From Tachypleus tridentatus (Eukaryota; Arthropoda; Merostomata; Xiphosura; Limulidae), in assembly GCF_004210375.1 (NCBI RefSeq), contig NC_134835.1, positions 67,176,447 to 67,240,446 on the forward strand: a DNA stretch of 64,000 bases, in the 5' to 3' direction. Within the stretch, counting starts at the first letter, position 1. Every line of letters starts with the position of its first letter. The notes below the pieces were generated by a model. The model was not told the origin of the DNA and did no database searches. It saw only the letters and a program-made list of their open reading frames with translations. Below are positions 1 to 55,735 of the stretch, one piece after another. Both the position numbers and the translations under genes were made by a program.

Positions 1-81
1 CAGTGGTTCACAGCTCTGACCATGCGTGCTAGAAAGGAAGGTCGAATAAAAGATGATATCCTTCTGAGTAACCTATTGAAT
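1..81 (+). CDS. Bestrophin exon a (cut by window edge)
   Basis: Reads [19 protein letters not shown] and on to LLN, then a strong donor GTAAGT at 82. It ends in phase 0. The upstream part of the exon is outside the window. Confidence 0.9.
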
Positions 82-3000
82 GTAAGTTTTCAGTGTTGTG
101 TACCATTTACAAACATTTTAAAACTTGCAATGTACTTTTCAGATCCATACATTTTACATACATGATTAATGTTTTTATCATTATGATTTTAACAAAGTAG
201 TTAGAAAATCCCCGTTCACATTAATGGTCTAAAAAAACAAATGCTCTGATCTCATTGACCATCAACTTCAAGTTCCCCATTTTAGAATTACTGGGATGGA
301 TATGGTATAGTATTTAGCATGTAACTGAGGGTTTGTGGTTTGCTTCACACTTTTATTCTGCAGGTACACTGTAAGAATGAAAGTCAAATCCCACTATGTT
401 ATTAAATAAGAGTATTTCAAGAACTGTCAGTGGGTGTTATTGAATATTTGCCCTTCTACCTAATCTGTCAATTCAAAATTAGAGATCACTTTGTGCAGAT
501 AGTTTTGAAGAATTAACCTTTCCATGAAAAGCTTAAAATAAATGAATTAAAATATTTTACTAGCCTACAAATCTAGTAACAGTTTTACTATGGAGCTTAA
601 AGAACTATTTAAGAAAAGTCAGATTTCTACAAAGAAATTGCAAATTTAAAACATTATATAGGCATTTTATAGTAAATAAACAACCTTAAACACCAGTTTA
701 TGGATAATGAAGTATTAATGAAACCTTATATTTATTTTTAGGTTTATTTTGTAATTTACAAATATAATACATTTTCAGGAAATGCATACATTTCGTGGGA
801 ATTGTGGAATGCTGTTCAGTTATGACTGGATTAGTATTCCTCTTGTGTACACACAGGTGAGTGTCAGCTTTCAAATATTTCAAATACTTATCAACATTTT
901 CTGACATCAAATGTTTTGACTTTTATGTTTGTTTAAATTTTCTGCACTTACCTACAGAATAGATCTTTCAAATATGAGATGTCTTGAAAATTTAGGGAAA
1001 GTATTTTGAAAAACATATGAACCCAGGACTGAAAACAAGCTATATTCTAACTTCTGTGGATAAAATATAGTTAATTATCATTTGTAATAAGATGTGTTTC
1101 TTTCTCTGAATGAAATAAGCTTTAGTGTGATAAGACATGTAAAATTAATGTAATAAAATTCGTGTATGTCATTTGAAAAAATATGAGGTGAGTCTAAGTA
1201 GTTGATTTTTACTATAATTTACCCTTTTAGCAATAGTTCTAAGATTTTAACAGTTTTCAAAGTGTGCGAGTAGGGTCTTTTAGTGATTATATAGGAAGGT
1301 TAACATCTGATTATGAGAAGGCTGGGCTATTATTGTACTTTTTTCTTCAGCTTTTTTTTTAATTTTAAGTTATTTCTCATCTTGAACATGTGCTAGATGA
1401 AAACAAGATCAAATAAAATGATCACATTAATTCTGAGCTTATTAATAAAACAGTTTGGAAGCTTAAAGAATAATAGTTCCAAATACTTCTAGGTTTGGAA
1501 GAAAAGGAAGGCTTGGATGAGTGAGCCACATGATAGTATTTTTTTGTTTGTGTAAGACTTTTCATTTTTTGTGCTTTACCTGACATAAATGAAGGAATCT
1601 ATATAAATATAATAGTACTGTCTGTTGTATGTCAATATAACTACTTTTACAAACTGTGGATGTATCTTTTCCAAAATTGGTACAAATGTTCATTAGCTCA
1701 ATTTGATGCATACAAATTTTGAACTTTACCTTTGGTAGTTTTTATGGCTGTTTTTGCATTTTTTTACCACTTCATTCCTTGTTGATGGATCTTCCAGATT
1801 TGGCAAGAAGGTTTGTTGGGTCTACGCAGAGATACATGCAAACTTGTGGTTTTACATTCAGTTTTTATTCCCTCCAAAATTTTCTGAGCTCTTCTGTTTG
1901 ACAAATTGATGGAAATCCATGTAAATATAACAAGCTACATTTGTTTCTGTCTGTCAGGTTGGTTTAAAGCTAGAATGAACAAAAACGTACAATTAAAAAT
2001 GAAAATTGCCATCAGTTCAACAATTTTCCATCTTCATAATTGATTTATGTAGTATATGTGGCTCAGTTCTGCTACATCTGTTGTGTTGGTTTCCATGAAA
2101 TCTTCATTTCCTTCCAAAGTTCTTCACACTTGCCATTGATCTTCAGTATGGAATGAAAGGAAAATTCATCCAACTGTTGAAATTTTTGGCCACAAATAAA
2201 ACCTTACAGTGAGTGAATTAACTTATAAAGGAGAAAGGATTGGATGTAGTTTCCAGAGAAGTATCTCGTGGAGTTAAACATTGTTCACTGTAAACTTTCT
2301 TAGCTCTACCATAGTAAGTTAGCAAACAGTTTCAGTGTTGTAAGGGTTTTTTTAGACCACCTATATTCATTATGCAATGAGATTTGTGTCACGAAAACTG
2401 AAACAAATTACCATCAAAGAGATTATGAATTGTCATGAATTCTATTGCTAGGGTGGTTGCTGTATGGGGAATAATTTAATTTTCAGTCCAGGATTTTCAT
2501 TTTTAATAGTTTTTTTTTTTTTTTTTGATAGATATCTCTAGGTGTTTTGACAAAACATTGAAGAAACTGAAAGTAGACATTTTAAAGTATCAAATATATA
2601 TTTTTCAAAAAAAAGCTGAAAATTAAACAATTGGGCTAGAAATACCTTAATAGTCTTATGGAGGAAAAATACATTGTGTTCTAGTTAATCAGATTCTTAA
2701 GCCGTCCAAACCATGCACTGTTGTCTGTGGCATGGCAACTAGAATGTTAGGTTGTATCTACATAAATGCAAGTCTAAAGAAGTTATTTCTTTGTTTAGAC
2801 CACATTTAGTGTTGTGTTCCATAATGGTCTCTTCGTCTTAGGAAGAACGTTAGTTTGTTGAAAAGGGTTTAGTAAAGAAATGAGGACAATATCTAAGATG
2901 GATAGGTTGTCATATAAGTACAAATGGAAATCTGTGAAATTGACTTCTCATAGACTTAGAGCAAGTGTGAGAGTTTTAACTTCCAGGATATAGATAGTGT

Positions 3001-20864: not shown

Positions 20865-23521
20865 CAGGGGTCACCAAACTACGGCCCTCGAGGTCATTTT
20901 GTTCGGCCCGCCAGCAGCTAACCGCTTGGAAATAAAAAGTGACATTTCATCAAATGTCCGACTGTTATAACAAAATAAATCACACTGATGGTCGCTTTCA
21001 GCTGCCAAACACAAAAGTTATTGTAAAAAAAACAAGGCTGTCACGCGCATTTTTAACCAATAGGAAAATTCTTCTTTCGTCCTTGCTGCCCGTATATTCA
21101 TATCGAGGCACGTATTTATGAAAGCATTAGGATTTCGAAAACAAGTACAGACTTAACCCTCGTCCTATTGACTCGTCTTGTAAATTCAGCGGCCTAGGGT
21201 TACCTATTCAGCAAGCTCATTTCTCTTATTAGTCGGGTTATACGCTTTTCGTAACTCGTTCTTAGGTAAGTGTCGTGGTAAACGTACGTTTCAATATATT
21301 TTGTTTGTGCGTTCTTGGACCATCACAATACTTTTCTCACAGCGTTCTGTGTTTTTCATTTTCAGATCCTGTTTTTTTCATCCATTGTTATGACTGCCTT
21401 CAAAAGAAGAAAAGTGGACTCTGAGTGTCGTGCTTTCAATGAAGAATGGGGAGAAAAGTACTTCTCTGTGGAAACAAAAAAAAACCAGAAAGCTACTTGT
21501 GTGATATGCATCGAAAGTGTTGCCGTTTTAAAAGAGTACAATTTTCGGCGTCACTATGAAACAAAACATCTATCAACATATTTGAAATTTTTAGTAAAGT
21601 GTCGTTCTGAGAAATTTGAATCCATGAAACGTGTTTTTGAATCTCAAAAGAATCTCTTCACCAGAAAGTTTGCTGAAAATGAATCTGTTACTCGTACAAG
21701 TTACAAAATAGTGCATAGGATGGCAGAGCGAGGAAAACCTTTTACTGACGGCAACTTCATCAAAGAGTGTATGATGGAAGCAGCAAATGAGCTGTGTCCT
21801 GAAAAGCCAATTTTTTTGAAAGTATCAGCCTTTCAGCAACTTCAGTTGTACGGAGAGCAGAAGAACTTGGAGAGAACATCGCATTACAGATATGCCAAAA
21901 TGCTAGAAACTTCCTATGGTATTTTCTGGCTGGCTCTGGATGAGTCTACTGATCTCTCGAGTACGTCACAACGTCTCGTGTTCATTCATGGAGTTAATTT
22001 GAACTTTCAGATCACGGAAGAGTTGGCATCAGTTTGCAGCATGCACGGAAGAACACCTGGAGAAGACATTTTCATGGAAGTGCATAAAACTTTGCAAGAC
22101 TATAACCTTCAGTGGAATCAGCTTAGAGGTGTAACAGTTGATGGGGAAAAAACATGACTGGTGTAAAGAAGGGTCTGGTGGGGCTGATCAGGAAACAGTT
22201 GGAAGATCTTCAACTCCCAGGCGCTCTGTTCATACACTGCATCATACATCAGCAAGCACTATGTGGAAAAGACTTAGATATTTCTTGCGTACTGAAACCA
22301 GTCATGACTGCAGTGAACTTCATTCGGGGTCATAAACTTAATTATCGCCAGTTCAAGATATTTCTTGAAGAAACTGATTCGGATTTCTGTGACTTGCCTA
22401 TCATACGGCGGTGAGGTGGCTCAGTTGTGGTAAAGTCTTGTCTCGTTTTCATAAGCTGAGAAGAGAAATAGATATATTTCTTATCGAAAAATATAGAGCC
22501 GATTCACTTCTGTCGGATCCAACCTGGTTGTCAAAGTTGTCATTTTTGGTTGACATCACATCCCACAAGAATGAATTGAACTTGAAACTTCAGGGAAAGA
22601 ATAACCTTGTCTGTGATCTCTATAGAATCATTAAAGGATTTCGGAGAAAGCTGTCATTGTTTGAAGCACATTTGGAACGAGGAAACCTCTCTCATTTGCA
22701 GTGTTTCAATGAGTTTTATGCTGGAATCACAGAAGAAGAAGATGTCAACCTGGAGTTTCAGAAAAAGATTATTGGTGATTTTAATAAGCATTTTTAGAGA
22801 GATTTTCGGATCTCGTCAGAATCGAAAGTGACATTCTCCTTCTTCTGAATCCTTTTGATTGTGTCATTGATGACGTGCCAGTGGAACTTCAGCTGAGGTC
22901 ATCGATTTGCAAGGAAATGACTTGTTGAAAGCAAAACACAGAGAGGGGCAACTTATTGAATTTTACAGCTGCATACCTGAAGATGATTTTCCAAAGCTGA
23001 AGCAGTTCGCATCTGGTATGGCATCAGTGTTCGGAACAACTTATGTCTGTGGACAAGCATTTTCAAAAATGAAATATGTGAAGTCGGTACATTAATCAAG
23101 GTTGACTGATGAACATTTGAAAGCAATTCTAACGATTGGATGCAGCAATTCCAAACCGAACATTGAAGATATTTTGAAAGTCAAACGCCAATTTCATAAA
23201 TCTCACTAACTTTTTTGATGCTTAGTGAAATTCAGATATGTCCTCACGATGTGCGATGTGAGAATTGTTTTTGCTAATGTCATCTTCTTTGATAACCTTT
23301 TGGTAAATAAAAATGTTGGTTGTATTTCTGTTTGTTTTTTATTATATGGGTGTATTGCATGCTACTCCCACATGGCTAATATGTCATCCTAAACTTAGTG
23401 TTAAGTCTTTTACAGAAACTTTCGTTCTAACTTATGAATATTGAACATAATGATCATGTGGCCCGCACTTCTCATTACCCAAGTAATCTGGCCCTCTGTG
23501 AAAAAAGTTTGGTCACCCCTG
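20865..23521 (+). mobile_element. hAT (Charlie-type) DNA transposon, full length
   Basis: Ends are inverted: caggggtcaccaaact at 20865-20880 and its complement at 23506-23521, 15 of 16 bases matching. Flanks are an 8-bp target duplication, CTCTAGAT (20857-20864) and GTCTAGAT (23522-23529), 7 of 8 matching. 8 bp is the hallmark of hAT insertion. Total 2657 bp, with one degenerate transposase gene in between. Confidence 0.95.
21390..23209 (+). pseudogene. hAT transposase (Charlie/GTF2IRD2-like), broken
   Basis: Starts at ATG 21390 (MTAFKRRKVDSECRAFNEEW). A BED-like zinc-binding N-terminus is visible as CVICIESVAVLKEYN...RRHYETKH, then the RNase-H-like part (LALDESTDLSST, SMHGRTPGEDIF, LQWNQLRGVTVDG), then the C-terminal hAT dimerisation region (GQAFSKMKYVKS, RLTDEHLKAIL) ending in TAA at 23207. 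Reading is broken by single-base shifts near 22145, 22393, 22795 and 22895, and by an in-frame TAA at about 23093. Transposases of this type move the element by cut and paste; this copy cannot encode an active enzyme. Confidence 0.93.
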
Positions 23522-36350: not shown

Positions 36351-37496
36351 TATTTTTGTGTATTATTGACTTTTGAGATGTCGTTAGTCTTATAAGAACG
36401 TGAAGAAACGATGCTTCTGTGATGCTGTATCATTATATCAACAGTACACATTTCAAACATCTGTAATTACGTAGGCCATGGATTAGCAACATCATGTGAT
36501 GCGCAAATTTCTCATCGTATCCTATACAGTCTATTATGATTTTACACCTTCAATGGATGCTCTTCTATATTATGTATACAAAAACACAACCACGTTTTCC
36601 ACAATCTATAAAAAATCACAGAAATGGTCAGAAATCATAAAGCCAATTTTGTTTTATTAGTTTTCTTTTATAGTAGAATGTTTCGAGTTTATGTATTTCA
36701 AACATGTAAAACCTTCACTCTTTTTTAAACCAATTATACATTTCATATTTTTTATTATTTTATTTCTGTAATTTTGTGCATGTGAAAACTTACATAAGGT
36801 TTGATTTCTCTAATTCTCTCAGAATGTTAATTTTCAGCAAGAAAACCACGTTGTTGATAATTACATAGTACGTGTCACTCAAGCGCTAGGTGAGAAAGCA
36901 CTTTCTGAATTTCCTACGTATTTTTGTGTCAGAAAACGTCTTCGAAACGTTTGGTCTCAAGCGTAAGTTTAAAATCCTATCTTGCTCTTACTCGAATATA
37001 CCCTTAGTAAAGAATTAAACGGACAGAAAACTATTTAGACAAGTCATAACAGTGAAAACAGGCCATAAACGTTGTCTAGCAAGCTGATAATATGAAGTAA
37101 GAGTCGTAATGTAGTATGTGAAAACAATACGAGTTTCATCAGAAAAAATATTATAGCACCAATTTACAAACATAACACAATTATGAATTATTTGTGTTTA
37201 CGGCGATTGAAATACATCAAATTAGGATTATCAACATATAATTTCAAATGATTAGTATTAAGTTAAAACGTAAGTTAACACGCTAAAGTAATTTTAGTTG
37301 TTCTATTGGAGTAATTTGATTACTGTATAAACTATTAGTACTATATATTTAATAGTTCAACGAAATATCTCATTAATTAATAATGTTTTAGAATAGTTTA
37401 AGAAAGAGAATTATGCTAGTAGGACATGCTGAAATAGAATGTTTAATGATCAGTTTTAAAATCTCTTGGAAACAGTCTTGTATTGATGTTGTATTA
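36351..37496. other. Intron side of the MyoD-family gene, nothing recognised
   Basis: A+T-rich DNA below the splice donor at 37497-37502. A second myogenic-factor exon was looked for on the minus strand here and down to about 35.8 kb without success. Confidence 0.4.
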
Positions 37497-37502
37497 ACTT
37501 AC

Positions 37503-38153
37503 ATTGTCGGTTTTGAGTTCACCTTCAGACTCAGGGTCACATCTGGTACAGAAGGAATTACATCCGTCCCAAGAGCTGTGCTTACTCTGAAGAATCCATT
37601 TAAGAGATTCAATGTAAACAATCGCATTGCGGAGTATTTCTACTTTAGGAAGTTTCTGGTTTGGGTTAAGGCAAGTCCGCTTCTTTAAAACCTCGAATGC
37701 TTCGTTCACTTTCCGGAGTCTTCGTCTTTCCCGTAAAGTCGCTGCTTTCCGTCGGTTAACTGTTGTGTTCTTTCTCTGACAAGCTTTACAGGCCCATACG
37801 AGACATGTTCTTTGGGTCTGGTCAAGAGGCGCTGGAGCTAGAAAGTGACCAGAACGTTCTGTTTTCATGTTTACTCCTGATGACGCTATAGGAGAAGCTG
37901 TACCCAAGACTGGGCCAAAACATTTCGTGACGTTTTCGGGTTTGAGTGATGAAACAAATGTCGTAGCTGACACAATTTTCGTATTTCTAGAACCGTTAAA
38001 GATGTTCGAGTCTTGAATTGGGATGTTTTGAAAACCCACAGTATTTGATAATTTGAGAGACGCTGCATTCATTTCAACTATTCTCTCAAACTTAGTCCTA
38101 GCTTCAAGGTTAACTAAACCACAAAAGATATTGTTAACTATGAGAATTATCAA
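37503..38153 (-). CDS. nau: MyoD-family myogenic bHLH factor, first coding exon
   Basis: Nuclear transcription factor that drives muscle fate by binding E-boxes as a heterodimer with E-proteins. Counted from ATG 38153, residues 117-125 (TCLVWACKA) form the Cys/His segment before the DNA-binding domain. Residues 133-152 hold the basic region with the myogenic Ala-Thr pair ([17 protein letters not shown]), and helix-loop-helix follows to about 189 ([31 protein letters not shown]). This is diagnostic for the MRF class rather than other bHLH proteins. Coding ends at 37503 before a GTAAGT donor (37502-37497), so at least one more exon lies further along the minus strand. The first 27 residues are hydrophobic and atypical; ATG 38072 (MNAASLKLS) may be the true start. 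Confidence 0.93.
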
Positions 38154-38450
38154 GTGCTTCCTATTTGCCTTAAAACAGCATCGCAGCTAAGAAATACAAA
38201 AGTCAAAATGCACGTAAGTTTCTCTTTCATTAGCCCTAGTGAGTGACAGAGACATGAGATAAAGGATAACTGACACACCCACTAAACCGGAGACTGGTTA
38301 GAAGAAAGTGACATGCTCAGTGGCGACACAGGTCTGGAGGGGAAACACGTTTGAAACTAAGACCACGTGAAGTCGAGACTTTATTTCCAGAGTATGTTTT
38401 CATCTAATTACCGCAGAAGCTTCTTACGTGTTTTTTACATCTGATGCACG
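38154..38450 (-). promoter_or_regulatory. Upstream region of MyoD-family gene with E-boxes
   Basis: CANNTG motifs lie at 38150-38155 (caagtg), 38364-38369 (cacgtg) and 38438-38443 (catctg). MRF genes are commonly auto- and cross-regulated through E-boxes, but such hexamers are frequent by chance and no TATA box or initiator was identified. Confidence 0.25.
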
Positions 38451-45262: not shown

Positions 45263-45565
45263 ATGTTAGCTGAGAAGATTTATTGGATCTTCACCGTTGT
45301 TTTACAACTGGTTGTTGATTCCACAGGGACTTATGAGAAGTTGTATTATAAGCTGTTGACCGGTAGCCGGCAGACGAACAACATCTTGGAAGTTCTGGAC
45401 ACTGTCCAAACCATTGAAGAGTGTACCTTAGTTTGTAGTTACAGGACCACAGCTTGTCGGGCTGTTAATTTCAGCTACAAGAGTAAAGTTTGCGAGCTTT
45501 TAACATTCGTGGGAGAAACGGCCAATATTACGAATGAGCCCTTATTTTCCGTCTGGTCTCAAATG
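45263..45565 (+). CDS. Lectin gene exon 1: signal peptide + PAN domain
   Basis: 101 codons from ATG to SVWSQM, then donor GTAAGG at 45566. Phase 0. The ORF runs on to 45652, but those codons are intronic. Confidence 0.88.
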
Positions 45566-48500
45566 GTAAGGAAAAAAAAAAGGATTTCACTTCCAAAATG
45601 GCGTTTATCAAACTTGACGAAGTTCAGTATTTATGTAGAAACTACAAATTGAAGCATGTTAGTTTACTTTTAGATAATTACACAACTTCTTAATTGGATT
45701 TTATTTATTATAGATCAAACATTCACTTTAAAATTGTTAATTACTTCTTGTTATCTTTGTGGCTTAAAATAAACTTAGAAACTAGGTGAAAAAGTTGAAG
45801 AATATTACAGTTATATTCATTAAATGTAAGAGGTCAACATTTGAATTACTTTGAGAGAATCCAAATACAACTAACCTTGAAATGAAACAACCTTTTGCAT
45901 AAAATTATCAAATATTAATATGAAGCAAATGCATTTTACTTTGCTATTATAGAAACAAAACTGCAAATTTTAAAAGTAAATATTTCTTAGATTTCAAGAT
46001 ATTTTGAAGTTGCAACATAGCATAAACACAATTTATATTTTTTAATGAAAATATTAATGAACATTAAGTTTTCTCTCAAATTTTAAATGTACATGAAATA
46101 CACGATATTTGGCCTTCCAGAGTATAATCTTGATTTTGTATTGTAGCTTATTAACTTTAACGGACACCCAGAAGACAATTCTAAAGTTATTCTAAAATCT
46201 TCCAATGAATAAGCAGTAAGTTTTCGAACCTCCAACGCTAAAGTCCGTAGTTCGATTCTCCGAGGTTGGTAAAGTAAAGATGGCCCAATGTGCAGTTTTC
46301 CTCTGGGAACAAAACAGGAAATATAAAGAGGTTATTCTAAAACAATGTAAGAAGCGCAAATTTCTTGATGACTCTAGGAACAAACGTGTCCATTTCATAA
46401 TACAAATATTTGTAATGCCCCCCACCCACAGTGGTATGTCTTCCGATTTGTACTGCTGTAAATCAAGTTTTGTTGTGAGTAGCGCACATATATCCCCTGT
46501 TTTCTTTCCCCTGACGTTCACGTACTTGTTTTTGTCTTTCAATTTGAGACGTAGTTTGTCTTTCACTTATCGTAAGCAACTGTTTCGGGAATTTGAAATG
46601 GAAAAGACGAAATTCGAGGAAATATAGCGTAACGCAAGCAGCGAGCTAAGACTAATAGTTTTCCATGTATAATCAGGGTTTAGGGTTCTGTATGTTACCA
46701 GATCCATTCTTTATCGTTTTCACTCAGTGCTGGACTCAGTGCTAGGTATTCCAATTTCTATCACTCATTTTTTTTAGCCAAACAATATTTTTTTTTGTTT
46801 AAAAACATTGTCAAATATTATATTTCAAAGTTCAATTTTATAAAGTTTACCTCTGAAGAAGAAACGGCTCAGGTTATAGGTTTCTTATGATTTTGTATTG
46901 TTTGTTTTTGAATTTCACGCAAAGCTACACGAGGGCTATCTGCGCTAGCCGTTCTCAATTTTGCAGTGTAAGACTAGAGGGAAGGCAGCTAGTCATCACC
47001 ACCCACCGCTAACTCTTGGGCTACTCTTTTACCAACGAATAGTGGGATTGACCATCACATTATAACGTTCCCATGGCTGAAAGGGCGAGCATGTTTGGTA
47101 TGACGGGGATTCGATTAATCTTATGTGATTATTTAACATTTAAGATGGGGGCACATCGACTTTTTAAACACATCTTTATTTTTCTGAGCTATTTATGCAC
47201 AAGACTGTTTATGGGTCATGAATTTGTTAGTTACATGTCCTTAATAATATTAGGAGTTACACGAAACTATAATACAAAAATTCTATCAGTATTACAGTTT
47301 ACCTTAGTAATTACTACTGGAGTGTTCTACATATTTCACACAGGAAATCAGTTATTTCACCAGAAAGTTTTGTCCATTCTTTACATTGAATGTTGTAACA
47401 AGCTAAAACGTAAAATAGTTCAGTATGATGCGATGTGTGGAATTCACCGGCAAAGAAGCCAATCGAGTAAGAGTTAACATGGTACGTACGATAATTGTGG
47501 ATGCAAAGTGATGTGGTTTTCTTTCTACGAAAGTTTTAAATCACAAAATGTGTAAGAAATTAAAAACTAGAGACTCAAGCAGAGTTTTTACTGTTACTAG
47601 AAGACAAAACTAGTAAACATAATTCACAATCAGGAAGACCTAATAAATCAAATGTTCGGAGATGTTAGACGTTATAACCTTATAAACTATGTTATTTGAA
47701 CGACTTTATTCCGTGATGAAATGCGTTAATCATACGCTTACGCCTTCCCGTGGCCTAACTTAGAAATGACTCGCGATAATTCAACGGAATATTTTGCGAG
47801 TAAGAAGGACAGTGTAAACTTTTAGTTATGGTCAGACTGGAGAAAAAAATCCACTTAGAGCTGAAAGTTAAAAGCCAAGGCCAGTGTCGTTATCAACTGG
47901 TGTTTTCACGAATGAAGGCACCCTCTATCTTTCTAAACCTTGGACTCAGTTTGTCATGATTAATTTAGCTTTGCAGTGACATTATCCATTGATTTTGCTT
48001 TACTTTCCTAGTCCTTTGTCCGTGCCCCTCGCTAGTACAGTGGTGTGTCTACGGATTTACAACGCTAAAATCAGGGGTTCGATTCCCTCGGTGGGCTCAG
48101 CAGATAGCCCAATGTGGCTTTGCTATAAGAAAACACACACACACACCCTTTGCCCGTATGAAGAGATATAGGAGTAGGTACGTGGAAAAAAAGGTCCTAT
48201 GAAATATTTGTGTTTAATAACGTAGTTAGCACAAGCTGAACATTCAAGTTAATATTATTTTCGTTTATTAAGTTTTATACATGTTGTCGGAAATAATTAC
48301 TAAGACAAATTAAGATAATGAGAAATGTGTTTAGTGACGTCATCTAAATGCTTCTCTTCCTTCTTCTAGTTTTTGCGTTTACAGAAAACTTCAAGAATAT
48401 TTTAAACTTGTTTTTCTACGGAATCTACAGCAAACTAAATACAATGTATACCACAGTTATTATATACATGTATAAAGACACTATAAACTATTAGACTTAT

Positions 48501-51500
48501 TACTAATATACAAAAAATGGGCCAAACATGATTTATAAGAAATGATAACACGGAAGGTTGTTTCGTACAATTCATCAGTGATGCCTATCGTTAGTACTTT
48601 CGCAGAAATGTAGATTTATTTCTTTATTAAAGTATTGACTTCCTGTTGGGTTCCAGAAAGATTTGGAATATAATGTGCATAGTCATGACATTAATGGAGT
48701 TCTTGGACTACCCCATCGTTTCTGACCAAATAAGAATTCTGAAATATTTATAACGGAAACCCCAAGTTTTTCTGTTCTTTACTATAAGAACTCCACCCTA
48801 GTAAATTCAGGTCAACGACTCGAAGTTTCTGAAATATTAACTTGAGTTGACAGTCCATAATAGCTTTATGGCTAAGTTAATGACTGAAAATTATCACGCA
48901 AGGACTATTGATTCACCAAGTCTATTTGTTAACAACGTAAACAACTTAGGATCAGAGAAATATATATATAACTTTTTTCTCATAAAATTCTACACTTTAT
49001 TATTTTATAAAATACATTTCAAAGTCGATATTTTGATAACAAAAACTTCCGTAACAACCTATCTACTCAAACCAAAACACAATCTGGCAATAAACACAGG
49101 TAACTATATATGCCATTTTTACGCTACTACTTGTGGAATTAATAATACAGTAGTGCCTCGGTTCTCAAACTTAATCAGTTCCAGAAGGCTGATCGAAAAC
49201 CGATTTGTTCGAAAACCGAATCAATTTTTCCCATAAGAAACACTGTAAATTAAATTAGTCCGTTACAGACCTTCAAAAATTACGCATTATGAAGCATTTT
49301 AAGTAAAAATATTGCTTATTTATATCTGTATAATAATACTTATATGCATAAAGTCAACCACAAAAACTATAAACACAATTAAAAAGCAATAAATGAAAAT
49401 TTAACTTCACTTTACCTGTGCTGAGGAGAGTGATGGCGTAAGTGAAAGGTGGTGAGGAACGAGGAGAGTAGGAGGGTTATTATTGTTTAGAAGGGGAGTC
49501 ACCTTCCATAAAAACGTCAGGTAACTCTCCTTCTGGGGTTCTTTCTCATTTCTGTCTCTTCGCGCCATTACAACCTGCTTGAGACTCACTGGACCTATTT
49601 CTCACTGAAAACTTGTCTCATGAGGTTTGTTTCTACCTGCATTTTAAAATGTTTCTGATGTAAGACATGGCATTGTCATTGAAAAGGTTTATGCTGCGGT
49701 TTGCTACAGCTTTATCAGGGTGAAATTTTCCACAAAACTTTGTAACTCTCCCCATTTTCCACACATTCCTTGATCAGTGAACTAGAAGTATCCTCCCTTC
49801 CCTCCTCCTCATCTGAATACACTTCCTCAGTTGCCTTTTGTTGCTGCTCCTTCTGAAGGTCTTGGAGTTCTTCCGTGGTGAGCTCAGTGTTGTGGTCTTC
49901 CACCAACTTTTCCACATCATCATCACTCACATTTAAGCCCATACACTTGCCTAGTGAGACAATATCCTTGACAACAGGCTCAGCCTCAAAACCTTCAAAG
50001 TCTCTATTTGCTACTGAATCTGGCCACAATTTCTTCCAGGCTGAGTTCATGGTCCTCAAAGACACTTTCCTCTAGGCTTTGTCTATGATCCTCAAGCAAT
50101 GGAGGGTATTAAAGTGATTTTTCCAGAACTCTCTGAGGGTTAACTCTGTGTCAGAGGTCACTTCAAAGCACCTTTGAAACAGTGCTTTGGTGTAAAGTTT
50201 CTTAAAGTTCGTAATGACCTGCTGGTCCATAGGCTGAATGAGAGGAGTTATGTTAGGGGGCAAGAGCTTCATCGTAATGAAACTGTACTCCTCCACCAAC
50301 CCGTCCTCCAAGCCTGGTGGGTGAGTAGATGCATTGTCCATCACAAGAAGGGCCTTGAGTGGCGACTGTTTTTCCATGAGGTAATTCTTTACACTTGGAG
50401 CAAACACTTCATGGACCCACTCCATAAAAAAATCACTATTAGCCCTCCATATGGCATTTAGTTTACTTTTCAGGACATTATTTTTCTTAAAACCCTCGGG
50501 TTCTCAGAATGGTACACAAGCAAAAAGCTTAAGTTTTAAGTCCCCACTTGCATTACTACATAACAATAGAGTTAGCCTGTCCTTCATTGGCTTGTATCCT
50601 AGCAGTGACTTCTTCTCCTTGGTGATGTAAGTCCTCTTTGGCATTTTCTTTCAATAGAGGCCTGTCTCATCACAGTTGAACACTTGTTGGAGAATAAAAC
50701 CCTCAGCTTCTACATAGTCCTTAATTTCCCTAACAAATTTATCAGCAGCGTCTTTATTAGAACTGGCACCCTCCCCATATCTCACCACACTATGTATGCC
50801 ACTTCTCTTCCTAAATTTTTCAAACCACCCCCTACTAGCCTTAAAGGCATCACTTGTATAAGCACTCGTTTAAGGGTGTTTTTCAGGAGATCAGCATGCA
50901 ACTGCTTTGCTTTCTCACAAATGGTGGTCTCGGAAATACTATCACCAGCTAATTGTTTTTCGTTTACCCAAATCAACAACAGTTTTTCTACCTCTTCCAT
51001 TGTTTGTGATCTTTGTTTCGTAAGCACAGTCACTCCTTTTGTAACATCAGCTCCTTTGATGACCTCTTTATTTTTCAGTATGGTGCAGACTGTAGACTTC
51101 ACCATACCAAACTGTGTAGTAAGGTCAGACACGCGAACACCACTCTCATACTTCGCAATGAGATCTTTTTTCCCCTCTATTGTGGCTCTAACAACTTTTC
51201 TTTTTGGTTTACTGCTTTCATTATCCTTCTTTGACCCCATGGTGGCTTATTTAATCAGAATATTTAGAAAAACAAAAAAACAAAAAGAAAAACGAGAACG
51301 TTCACAGCAGATTTTAGCGGAGGTGTGAACTGAGTGACAGGACAGGTGCGGGTAAAATGTTTTGGGCAAGCTTGGCGTGGGCTGAAAATGGTCGAAGGGT
51401 CGTTCGGGTCATCAGTCGGATTATTTCGGGGGTTCGGGCCACGACAGCTTGATTCGGGAACCGAGTTTATGTTCGACAACCGAGACATTTTTTTCTCAAA

Positions 51501-54500
51501 CAATATGTTCGAAAACCAAATTTTTCGAGAAGGAGGTCGTTCGAGAACCGAGGTACCATTGTACATTGTTTTATGACTTGGGTTCATTCAATGCTAAAGA
51601 CATATGTGGAAATAAACCCAATAATGTCTCACGAGGTTGGGCTGTTTTGGAGAAATAGGTTTTCTTAAATTAATATTATAAGCTACCGATGAAAAATCAT
51701 ATGTATAATAACAAATAAAAGTTAATACAAATATATATATATCAATCATTGCAACAAATACTATCAACGAAAGTAAACGCTAAAAATATAAAGTAATTCT
51801 TACTTTTGGATCAAGTAAATTACAGTTTTTTAATACTATAAACTAATCCCACAGTCCATAGATAATCTTTTTAATAGAAATACTATTAGAGTTTATGATT
51901 TAGTGTTCTGATTTAAACGTTCTGTACTAGTTACTAGAGGGAGTTTTGATATCACGTAGTGATGTGTGACGACTAGAGCACTGTATATGTGTATCTGACA
52001 GGATGTCTCGAATATTTCTTAGGCTTTGACAAGAGTAATGCGATAACATAAAAACATCAGAGAGAGTTGTTTTTTAGAAAGTTAGTGAGTCGTTTACGTT
52101 GTTAACTATCGATTGCTAAGTTAGCGAGTCTGTTCGCCAACCAGTGTTTTGTTTGTGTCATTGATACTGAAATAAATTTAACAAGTAACTGACTATTTAG
52201 TTTTATGTGTACGTTAGGCCTATCGCTCGGTGAGGTTGGAGAGCCTTGCTTGTCGTGGACTAAAGTTTCCATTATTTTTTACCATTCAATTAAAATAAAC
52301 TTTATAAGAGGACAAACGTATCTTTAAAAGTAAAAAATTCAGTCATGATATTACACTTTTCATGTAACAAAAATTTTGACTAAAAGTTTTATTTTAATAT
52401 GTTTAACTTAGACAAATGTCCTTGAAAAACAACTTCGTGTTGTATGAAAATACAGAATGAAATAACTTATCCACATTTCTTAAAAAAGACATTATTTCAA
52501 ACACAAAGTAAAGAACACGATAGTTATAAATATTTCTGACCACCTGTCTATCCTGTATTACCAGTAGTGGTTTAGCGGTAAGTCTAAAAGTTTATCATGC
52601 TAAAAAACCGAATTTCGATACCTGGGGTGGGTACAGCACAGACAAACCAATGTGTAGTTTTGTGTTTCAAAACAAAGAAACAGGATAATCTATTCTATAT
52701 TAAAAAAATTTCATAAACCGAGTATGGAGTTGGGATCATTCGTAGTTAACTTTCTTAGGTGTCTGACAGTCTTCCAGTGGGATAGCGGTAAGTCGTTGGA
52801 TTCACAACACAAAAATCAAGGGTTCGATTTCCCTCGTTGGACAAAGAAGATAGCCAGATGTGGCTTTACTATAAGAAAGCACGTGCACACACATACACGT
52901 ATTCGACGAAAGTGAAAGCATAGTGTTTAATGTAGTTATATATAAATATCTGATAAGACAGTGTATCTGTACAGAAACAAACAAATAAAATAGGAGTAAT
53001 AATATATTTTCACCTGATACTAGGGATCGTACGTTATGATGAACTCTTAGGTTTATGCTATAAATGAATCATTTAATTACAGATAGGAATGTAAAGTCCA
53101 TTTTCTGTCATTAAGCGGAAAGGATACACAATAGGCTAATTGTGCTGTGCCATCCACGTGTATCGAAGCCCAGTTTATATCGTTATAGGCCTTCAGACTT
53201 ACCGCTAAGCTACTAGGAAACTATATATATATTAAGAGCAGCCTTTTTTCAAGAAATAAAAGATGTATAATATTGGAATAAAATTGGTTAGCAGAAAAAT
53301 AATTTCTTTAGGCATATTTGTTGCTAAACGTAGTTAACTGATCTCTAGGAAACTTGTAAGGACAGGCCATGCCATCATGGAGGCCACTGTATTGAGAAAA
53401 TGCCTGATCTACGTGACTCTAATTGGTTTAAATGTGATTGCGGGTTCTGGTTCAGTGGACTCACATGTGAAATGCGTAAGTTTATTATCCATTACGATAG
53501 TGATTAATCTATATATTGAAATGTAGTAAGAAAATAAAAACATTTTGTTTAAAGAAATAAAAAACAGAATTATGTGAACTAATATGATGTACATATCTTT
53601 CGATTATATTAATAATTAACGTTGTGGTTCACACCCAGGAGCTTCTCTTGAAAGTAACAATATACATTTAGTGGAATGATGCTCACAATAATTGAAGCAA
53701 AGTTCTTTTAATAGGTCTAACCTATTCCGCGTTGAGGAAGCTGATAAAAAGCACGTGTATTTTATGTATATGTAACAACAAGATGCAGCATTATGCAAAG
53801 TTTCTACTAAACCCAGAAAAGATTAAACGGTTTTTTCATTAAGAATTTTTTTCTCTCATTTAAAACGTTTTGGTGCTCAAACGTTTCGACGAATCAATCT
53901 TTTTAATTTCAACACTTTAGAACATTGTCACTTTTTTCTTGATGTTGTTGTTTTCTGCCAGGAAAGTTTGATGTGGAAATTTCTTATTGATGAAATGTTG
54001 CTTCGTCCATTTATCTGTTTGGCTTTTTTTTTTGATAAAACTAAGGTGAAAGGACGACAACTTTAATTTGAAAAACTAGAAAATATAACTATGAAGTTTA
54101 TGTGTTCTGATAAATGTAACTAACCAGTAGGGACTCGAGAGAATAAGTGTTTCAGCTTTAACATTAAGAGCATGATGTTTGTTCGTACGCCATCAAACGA
54201 AGTATTACAAACTTATGTCTTGCAGCCGTTCCACCTTATGTGCCATTCAGAAACTCTTTCTTCAAGCTGTCCGACTCTAGAATGATGTGGAATCAGTCAA
54301 AAACAGCGTGTGAAGAAGTAGGAGCTAAGTTGGCTGTGGTTCCTGACTCCGCCACCAATGACTTCCTGAAAAACCTAATCAACACCACGTACCAGGGTTT
54401 TCCAGCGAGCCACTGGATCGACGTTAGACGTTTGAAAGAGTGCAACTATACGACAATACATGGGTTTACTGATTGGGCCCCTGGCCAACCTCTCTGTAAC

Positions 54501-54647
54501 TACGACTGTGTCCACTTATGGTCGGCCTCGAACTTGATGTGGGACGACACTGACTGCAAGCATCTGTTCAACTATATTTGTGAAATCACATTTTTTAACC
54601 ATCAAGCTGGTTGTTCTATCATTTTAAAAATGTATGGTCGTTCTTAA
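45263..54647 (+). CDS. Secreted PAN-EGF-C-type lectin protein (3 exons)
   Basis: Exons 45263-45565, 53349-53475 and 54226-54647 join into about 283 residues. Exon 1: signal peptide (YWIFTVVLQLVV) and a PAN/apple domain with Cys in IEECTLVCSYRTTACRA and SKVCELL. Exon 2: EGF-like domain with six Cys spaced C-x4-C-x5-C-x14-C-x-C-x8-C. Exon 3: C-type lectin fold (MMWNQSKTACEEVGAKLAVV, HWIDV, FTDWAPGQP, MWDDTDC, YICEI) and stop TAA. No membrane segment follows, so it is probably secreted and could bind glycans or proteins in haemolymph or matrix. The usual sugar/Ca2+ triplet (EPN or QPD) reads QPL, so classical sugar binding is doubtful, although WDD is near the WND position. Intron 1 (7.8 kb) holds SINEs and a Tigger element. 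Function is inferred from the domains only. Confidence 0.85.
46213..46318 (+). repeat. SINE family B, diverged
   Basis: 'gcagtaagttttcgaacctc', 'caacgctaaagtccgtag', 'ttcgattctccgaggttgg', then 'gatggcccaatgtgcag'. In lectin intron 1. Confidence 0.65.
46418..46502 (+). repeat. SINE family B, strongly diverged
   Basis: 'cccacccacagtggtatgtc' and 'ttgtgagtagcgcacatat' resemble the head and middle of the a variant. Confidence 0.45.
46897..47114 (-). repeat. SINE family A, 5' truncated
   Basis: Antisense from 'gtttgtttttgaatttcacg' to the B box 'gacggggattcga', where homology stops; the A-box half of the head is missing. An ORF running from here to 47477 is a chance fusion. Confidence 0.92.
47115..48012. 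other. Lectin intron 1 sequence, nothing recognised
   Basis: No exon, RNA or repeat supported. Confidence 0.35.
48024..48146 (+). repeat. SINE family B (b variant), 11-bp target duplication
   Basis: 'gcccctcgctagtacagtgg', 'ctacggatttacaacgcta', 'tcaggggttcgattccctcg', tail with ACACAC. CCTTTGTCCGT (48013-48023) and CCTTTGCCCGT (48147-48157) differ at one base. Confidence 0.95.
48158..49145. other. Lectin intron 1 sequence, nothing recognised
   Basis: A+T-rich; the 48847-49236 open frame ends inside the Tigger terminus and has no protein likeness. Confidence 0.35.
49148..51561 (-). mobile_element. Tigger (pogo/Tc1-mariner superfamily) DNA transposon
   Basis: Ends: 'cagtagtgcctcggttctc' at 49148 and, complemented from 51561, 'caatggtacctcggttctc'. 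Both are flanked by TA (49146-49147, 51562-51563), the canonical pogo/mariner target duplication. Subterminal 'gttcgaaaaccga' motifs repeat at both ends. 2414 bp, antisense to the lectin gene whose intron 1 it occupies. Confidence 0.95.
49715..51240 (-). pseudogene. Tigger transposase (TIGD-like), lightly broken
   Basis: From ATG 51240: MGSKKDNESSKPKRKVVR, then a pipsqueak/CENP-B-type helix-turn-helix (GKKDLIAKYESGVRVSDLTT), a second CENP-B domain (SISETTICEKAKQLHADLL), and the DDE/D endonuclease: CDETG (about 50670), LLVMDNASTH (about 50330) and PLIQPMDQQVI (about 50235). It ends in an acidic C-terminus with stop near 49715. Damage seen: a one-base shift near 50820, TGG to TGA at 50651-50653, and shifts near 50520-50460 and 50070. 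Few lesions over 1.5 kb suggest a fairly recent death. Confidence 0.92.
51570..52555. other. Lectin intron 1 sequence
   Basis: Contains 52107-52260, which shares blocks with 39250-39290 and 39940-39975 (see findings). Otherwise nothing recognised. Confidence 0.4.
52560..52683 (+). repeat. SINE family B (a variant), diverged
   Basis: 'gtagtggtttagcggtaagt', 'gaatttcgatacctggggtg', 'ggtacagcacagac', A-rich tail. Confidence 0.8.
52769..52897 (+). repeat. SINE family B (b variant)
   Basis: 'cttccagtgggatagcggta', 'aagggttcgatttccctcgt', 'tggctttactataagaaagc', tail with alternating CA. Confidence 0.88.
53119..53217 (-). repeat. SINE family B (a variant), diverged
   Basis: 'tacacaataggctaattgtg', 'acgtgtatcgaagcccagtt', 'agacttaccgctaagctact'. 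It ends about 130 bp before lectin exon 2. Confidence 0.75.
53349..53475 (+). CDS. Lectin gene exon 2: EGF-like domain
   Basis: 42 codons plus one base: ETCKDRPCHHGGHCIEK...WFKCDCGFWFSGLTCEM. Acceptor CTCTAG at 53343-53348, donor GTAAGT at 53476. Entry phase 0 matches exon 1 and exit phase 1 matches exon 3; the split codon reads CCC (Pro). It lacks an ATG-initiated ORF of its own and is easy to miss. Confidence 0.85.
54226..54647 (+). CDS. Lectin gene exon 3: C-type lectin domain and stop
   Basis: Acceptor TCTTGCAG at 54218-54225. VPPYVPFRNSFFKLSDSRMM leads into the lectin fold, about 120 residues, then a short tail HQAGCSIILKMYGRS and TAA. Extra cysteines in CNYDC are unusual. Confidence 0.9.
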
Positions 54648-54671: not shown

Positions 54672-55735
54672 AACTAAAGAACTTGTAAGTTTGCTGGTTA
54701 TTTTTCTAGCAGGTTTTAATATTAGAAAAATAGAGATGGACATTGAAAACATCACTGCTTCGCGTCTACTACTAATATGTAAATTTTATTACGTTTATAT
54801 AATGTTAAAATATAACTCTAACGGAACATTTTCCAGTAAAATAATGTAATATATATATTAAATTTACTTTTTAGGGTGCTTCAATAATAATATAATACAC
54901 TTTAACACCTCTGTTATTGTTTCACACCTTGTCACTGGTTATTTATTCTGTGTTATTGTTTCATACATAGTAACTAATTATTCTGTGTTATTGTTTCATA
55001 CCTAGTCACTAATTATTCCGTGTTATTGTTTCATATCTTCTGACTAATTATTCCGTGTTATTCTTTCATATCTTCTCACTAATTATTCTGCGTATTGTTT
55101 TATACCTTGTCACTAATTTTTCTGTGTTATTGTTTCATACCCTGTTACTTATTATTCTGTTTTATTGTTTTACACTTAGTCACTAACTATTCTGTGTTAT
55201 TGTTTTATACCCTGTTATTGATTATTCTGTTTTATTGTTTCATATCTAGTTACTAACTACTCTGTGTTATTGTTTCATATTATATCACTAGTTATTATGT
55301 TTTATTGTTTTATACCGTACCACTGGTTATTCTGTGTTATTGTTTATATCGTGTCAGTGGTTATTTCGTGTTATTCTTTCATAACTTGTCAATGGTTATT
55401 CTGTGTTATTGTTCTATAATATATATGAATGATGCCATGTTGTTGTTTTATTCTATTACTGTTAGTGTACGTTACTGGTTTAAATAATTTTACTGGTTAT
55501 TCTATGTTACAGTTTTATGCTGTGTCACTAGTGATTCTACATTACTATGTTTTACTGTGTAACTTGTTTTTCTGTGTTACTGTACTATATCGTGTCGATG
55601 GTAGTTCTCTATTCTTGCTTTATGGCATATCGTAAACTTGCTTATACCGTGTCGATGGTAGTTTTGTATTTGTATTCTTGTTTAATGTCTGGTGATAGTA
55701 CTTCTGTGTTCTTGTTTTGTATTGTGTTTATAGTA

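Follow-up and report, generated by a model that had tools for sequence, protein, structure and literature searches.

Three exons of a 64,000-nucleotide stretch of the genome of the horseshoe crab Tachypleus tridentatus in all likelihood form one protein-coding gene. The stretch (C11:67176447-67240446 of a 2.17-Gb genome in 205 contigs) is called the window below. The predicted product of the gene is a soluble secreted mosaic that consists of a PAN domain, an EGF-like module and a C-type lectin domain (CTLD). The gene appears to be a divergent member of a family of nine genes dispersed over the genome. A previous sequence-only reading of the window did not recognise this domain order. We found it in the nine modelled genes and in one further gene that is disrupted; since eight further open genes were modelled in the same genome, the PAN-EGF-CTLD order is recurrent and not unique. 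At the same time, the shared exon structure of the paralogues lends independent support to the gene in the window.

The three exons join into a coding sequence of 852 nt that encodes 283 residues and has no internal stops. The splice sites are canonical and the exon junctions have phases 0 and then 1, exactly as the sequence-only reading proposed. The probability of 283 open codons by chance was estimated from composition as 4e-10; this is a rough figure because the frames and splice sites were picked after inspection.

The predicted order of signal peptide, PAN, six-cysteine EGF and CTLD also stood up, as judged by Pfam, the cysteine pattern and the hydrophobic N-terminus. The domain scan of the joined protein, which had been suggested as a check, gave PAN_1 and Lectin_C above their cut-offs and a sub-threshold EGF match between them. 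The EGF score is 14.7 bits for the whole protein and 20.2 bits for exon 2 alone, under the cut-off of 21.5; the six-cysteine spacing is present. This spacing pattern occurs once in the window. Of 20 Markov shuffles, 18 lacked it and two had a single occurrence each. The CTLD core pattern likewise has a single occurrence in the window. The PAN/apple assignment is based on the PAN_1 match over the cut-off and on four cysteines that are invariant in the nine-row family alignment. With the E-value threshold raised to 10, Pfam reported Lectin_C, PAN_1, EGF and a weak FERM_N match for the whole protein, and the NCBIfam scan gave just a weak polycystin match on the CTLD. A sequence search of the PDB with the first 143 residues returned 19 matches up to E 1, all weak (the best 0.0057) and nearly all to EGF modules; none of the 19 is a PAN protein by name. 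Coordinates of all the features are collected in Table 1.

Table 1. Positions of the gene features in the window (forward-strand numbering of the window) and of the gene models of the family in the genome
Feature	Position	Residues	Strand	Details
Coding exon 1	45263..45565		+	303 nt; ATG, signal peptide, PAN; ends in phase 0, donor GTAAGG
Intron 1	45566..53348		+	7783 nt
Coding exon 2	53349..53475		+	127 nt; phase 0 to 1; acceptor ctctag, donor GTAAGT; EGF-like module
Intron 2	53476..54225		+	750 nt
Coding exon 3	54226..54647		+	acceptor cttgcag; CTLD, C-terminal tail, stop TAA
Possible poly(A) signal ATTAAA	54666..54671		+	19 nt past the stop codon; consensus match only
Signal peptide	within exon 1	about 1-20	+	hydrophobic N-terminus; putative cleavage site
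PAN_1	45347..45535	29-91	+	cysteines 54, 58, 65, 77; Pfam 35.8 bits, E 7e-9, cut-off 21.4
Six-cysteine EGF-like module	53355..53468	104-141	+	cysteine-spacing pattern
Lectin_C	54279..54584	162-263	+	Pfam 51.4 bits, E 2e-13, cut-off 22.6
Tail after the final CEI	54588..54644	265-283	+	19 residues, Cys273; family alignment
Nine gene models	window gene; C1:34.82M; C12:51.97M; C5:7.00M; C13:181.85M; C7:19.59M; C5:20.19M; C11:49.41M; C9:72.46M			

When the genome was searched with the joined protein, 37 matches came up: the window's own three exons, CTLD exons at other places and some EGF exons adjoining these. The CTLD exons of the eight paralogues are 26-42% identical to the window protein in this search. 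One paralogue is located on the same contig as the window, C11, and the other seven are on other contigs. For model building we examined ten loci and six further stretches, and the EGF pattern was present in nine of the ten loci, all but C13:238.4M. Every one of the nine models has three coding exons in the order PAN-EGF-CTLD; the first ends in phase 0, the second in phase 1. Five models (window, C1, C12, C11b, C9) have an exon 2 of 127 nt, and the other four one of 112 nt. A further locus, C12:94.67M, is counted as disrupted: it has PAN and EGF exons, its CTLD frame is broken, and no ATG was seen in its PAN frame. For the paralogues, we chose the splice sites manually at the position homologous to that of the window gene.

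Profile searches link the PAN exons to each other. A profile of four exons (window, C1, C12, C5) found three more with E-values from 7e-23 to 4.5e-18, the next match being at 1.5e-4. An eight-row profile added the exons of C5 (20.19M) and C11 (49.41M) with E-values of 1.7e-24 and 1.4e-23, and the next independent match was at 1.4e-3. All nine members score above the Pfam cut-off for Lectin_C, C9 barely so (23.7 versus 22.6 bits).

The genome has at least 150 PAN_1 matches, and the proximity of PAN and CTLD exons was assessed among the matches listed (106 CTLD matches versus 150 PAN matches). Six CTLD exons, including that of the window, have a PAN exon within 15 kb upstream on the same strand, and two further pairs on C9 are spaced by 29.5 and 43.7 kb. 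Among these matches, no CTLD exon has a PAN exon within 60 kb on its downstream side or on the other strand. If the two kinds of exon were placed independently, about 0.009 would be expected within 15 kb, clusters being counted once; the distance of 15 kb was fixed after the pairs had been inspected.

Several candidates were left out of the family. Two of them are among the six same-strand PAN-CTLD pairs within 15 kb: the pair at C3:75.9M has no EGF pattern in its 6.9 kb, and that at C7:48.37M was covered apart from the middle of the locus. The locus C13:238.4M was dropped as having no PAN, EGF or CTLD pattern. We also excluded from the count seven CTLD-like matches with internal stops on C9 (111.26M, 111.32M, 111.51M, 117.38M, 145.54M, 145.58M and 147.42M), which are apparently decayed relatives. 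A different arrangement was seen on C8, where an EGF exon of the family type is followed by a PAN domain (C8:114267558-114270716, PAN_1 3.9e-5) and there is an upstream PAN match at C8:114272362. This locus is a possible PAN-EGF-PAN relative. Nine of the listed PAN matches fall within C8:114.17-114.33M.

The window protein and one other stand out as the most divergent members of the family. It is 23-32% identical to the eight paralogues over the aligned region, while the paralogues, C9 apart, are 32-55% identical among themselves. The nine-row alignment has 22 invariant columns, which include the first methionine and all 14 cysteines common to the three modules. When the window gene is compared with each paralogue, codon position 3 differs most often, and position 2 differs no more often than position 1. 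After residue 45, the mean hydropathy does not exceed 1.25 over any 19-residue stretch in any of the nine members. The C1/C12/C11b group is well supported in the tree; the window gene and C9 sit on long branches, and their placement is unsure. The simplest account of the family layout is that the three-exon structure arose once and was then duplicated.

Some features are found in the window copy alone. After the terminal CEI, CEL or CEF motif the eight paralogues have two to four residues versus 19 in the window protein. Together with Cys273 of this tail, Cys216 and Cys234 make three extra cysteines. With the signal peptide set aside, the window protein has 17 cysteines (C13 and C5b have 15), and since this number is odd, at least one of them must be free or intermolecular. 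Cys216 and Cys234 could pair as an extra loop disulphide, and Cys273 could form a bond between molecules.

The roles of EPN, QPD and WND motifs as calcium and sugar ligands are known from work on mannose-binding protein. The window CTLD has neither EPN nor QPD together with WND, the combination typical of canonical calcium-dependent C-type lectins. Its phmmer alignment to 3vyj places QPL at the EPN/QPD site and WDD at the WND site, and the Glu before its core Cys faces an Asp of 3vyj across a one-residue gap. Neither EPN nor QPD occurs in any of the nine members, the motifs being QPL, EPS, QPS, EPR, EPH, EPP, EPY, EPS and QPS. Six of the nine retain the Glu of EP, and three (C1, C5, C5b) have WND.

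A number of observations weigh against the interpretation of the window exons as a working gene of a nine-member family. All evidence for the gene and the family comes from the DNA of one genome. The single-sequence structure predictions are too poor to help (mean predicted local distance difference test score 32.9 for exon 3 and 41.4 for exon 1). The agreement of phases among the models is not blind because the sites were hand-picked, and at five loci only phase-0 donors of exon 1 were listed. PAN_1 passes its cut-off in five of the nine members and EGF in two; the C13 and C9 members have no Pfam PAN_1 match at E 0.1. The C9 PAN is weak with the four-exon profile too (E 0.13, ranked under eight unrelated or related matches), and its score with the eight-row profile is circular because the C9 piece had been placed in that profile by hand. 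Finally, the branch of the window gene is very long, 3.41 changes per column versus a median of 0.65, the second longest in the tree. Its function may therefore differ from that of its relatives, or the copy may be recently decaying.

It is nevertheless unlikely that the family is functional and the copy in the window a duplicate that decays or has fallen silent. Its branch length, longer tail and altered motif are compatible with decay, and broken relatives do exist in the genome (C12:94.67M and the C9 copies). However, the three frames are open and the splice sites intact; all 14 family cysteines are retained despite the identity of 23-32%, and the PAN_1 score is the highest among the nine members. 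It is still far less probable that unrelated exons of neighbouring genes were joined by eye. The large first intron (7.8 kb) would suit such an error, but the paralogues repeat the three exon types in the same order and on the same strand, and the PAN exon is backed by a profile or Pfam in seven of the eight.

If the window exons are indeed a gene of this family, its product would most likely be soluble and serve in adhesion or recognition, with a CTLD of a non-classical type. For the haemolymph, immune or clotting functions that the sequence-only reading brought up, the sequences speak neither for nor against. Two roles of nearly equal probability may be considered. The protein may tentatively be placed in the extracellular matrix or cuticle as an adhesion molecule whose CTLD binds protein instead of sugar, like those of the lecticans. 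The EGF module adjoining the CTLD and the replacement of the classical motifs by QPL and WDD are in line with this plausible role, but Pfam shows neither link nor sushi modules in the window protein, and its PDB matches are not lectican-specific, the best being CLEC4A4 and mannose-receptor CTLDs. A role as a haemolymph pattern-recognition lectin, with the CTLD binding microbial sugars and the PAN domain recruiting partners, is only slightly less likely. The soluble secreted layout and the multi-copy divergent family agree with it, and retention of the EP Glu and of WND in part of the family means that some members may keep part of the calcium site. A mite genome paper describes CTLD proteins with putative immune roles and cites a shrimp lectin with an unusual QAP motif (PMC6275457). 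The absence of both EPN and QPD from all nine members speaks against this role.

A comparison with known proteins places the separate modules. CLEC4A4 (PDB 3vyj), also called DCIR2, and the mannose-receptor CTLDs resemble the window protein in the domain match and in the four core cysteines; CLEC4A4 differs from it in having EPN and WND. Lecticans (aggrecan, versican, neurocan and brevican) have link modules, an EGF module directly before the CTLD and a sushi module after it, and their CTLDs bind protein. The window protein is like them in the adjacency of EGF and CTLD and possibly in the protein nature of ligands, and unlike them in having an N-terminal PAN domain and no link or sushi module found by Pfam. 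PAN/apple domains are known from HGF, plasminogen, factor XI and prekallikrein. The window protein shares with these the PAN_1 domain with four cysteines, but has a single PAN and no protease or kringle domain found by Pfam. Shuffling of PAN/apple with other extracellular modules also occurs in cnidarian Polydom of the sea-anemone matrisome, whose order is Pentraxin-PAN-FA58C-sushi; the domain order thus differs from that of the window protein, and the sections of that source available to us do not name a C-type lectin domain for Polydom (PMC12549020).

As to the organism itself, the sequence-only reading recognized a genome of the horseshoe-crab type. This holds, because the genome has 19 matches to the family of coagulin, the protein of the clot in horseshoe crabs. 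Among known proteins of the same kind of animal, tachylectins and clotting factors share with the window protein the idea of secreted recognition, a likeness of general description. The T. tridentatus genome paper treats C-type lectins as one of six recognition families, and its main text does not contain the word PAN (PMC7011531). We found no description of the PAN-EGF-CTLD order in the literature searched, which was judged mostly by titles and the openings of abstracts. Proteins of this order are of an ordinary modular extracellular kind, in an arrangement that has apparently not been studied.

Other features of the window lie around the gene and in its first intron. An open frame on the minus strand (37494-38186), some 7 kb away from where the lectin-like gene starts, encodes a myogenic basic domain and a helix-loop-helix (Pfam Basic 1.5e-6, HLH 4.6e-13); it is probably an exon of a MyoD/nautilus-type factor. 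Intron 1 contains transposase pieces on the minus strand at about 49715-51246 (DDE_1 1.5e-15, Tc5-type helix-turn-helix 1.1e-4, CENP-B_N 0.0012), which we take to be of the pogo/Tigger type. On the plus strand at 21282-22797 there are frames that are perhaps transposon-derived, the first of which matches a Spin-doc zinc finger (zf-C2H2_12 1.9e-8). Just past the gene, at about 54910-55400 on the plus strand, a stretch that looks repetitive, its unit about 50 nt long (tgtgttattgtttcatac...), was spotted by eye.

Returning to the secreted PAN-EGF-CTLD protein, we suggest how it might act. The PAN and EGF modules would together make up a stalk, stiffened by disulphides, on which a partner protein docks and is bound. 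The CTLD would serve as a ligand-binding face without use of the classical calcium and sugar motifs. The site of action would be extracellular, and perhaps in the haemolymph or matrix, where the protein might be an adhesion or recognition molecule. A bolder version seems improbable: a lineage-specific, exon-shuffled family of secreted recognition proteins with a PAN-EGF stalk and an interchangeable third module (CTLD, or perhaps a second PAN at the C8 locus). The window copy would then be fast evolving, with rewired disulphides and covalent dimers formed through the tail cysteine, as in an arms race of host and microbe or of self-recognition.

Horseshoe crab blood is used in endotoxin testing, and the lectins of these animals are well studied. 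The modules described here and the kind of protein they compose are ordinary; still, an uncharacterised secreted lectin-like family in a horseshoe crab would be worth placing. A single odd reading has grown into a definite set of nine modelled genes that have their exon structure in common, and the list of loci can be used for expression checks by invertebrate immunologists and matrix biologists.

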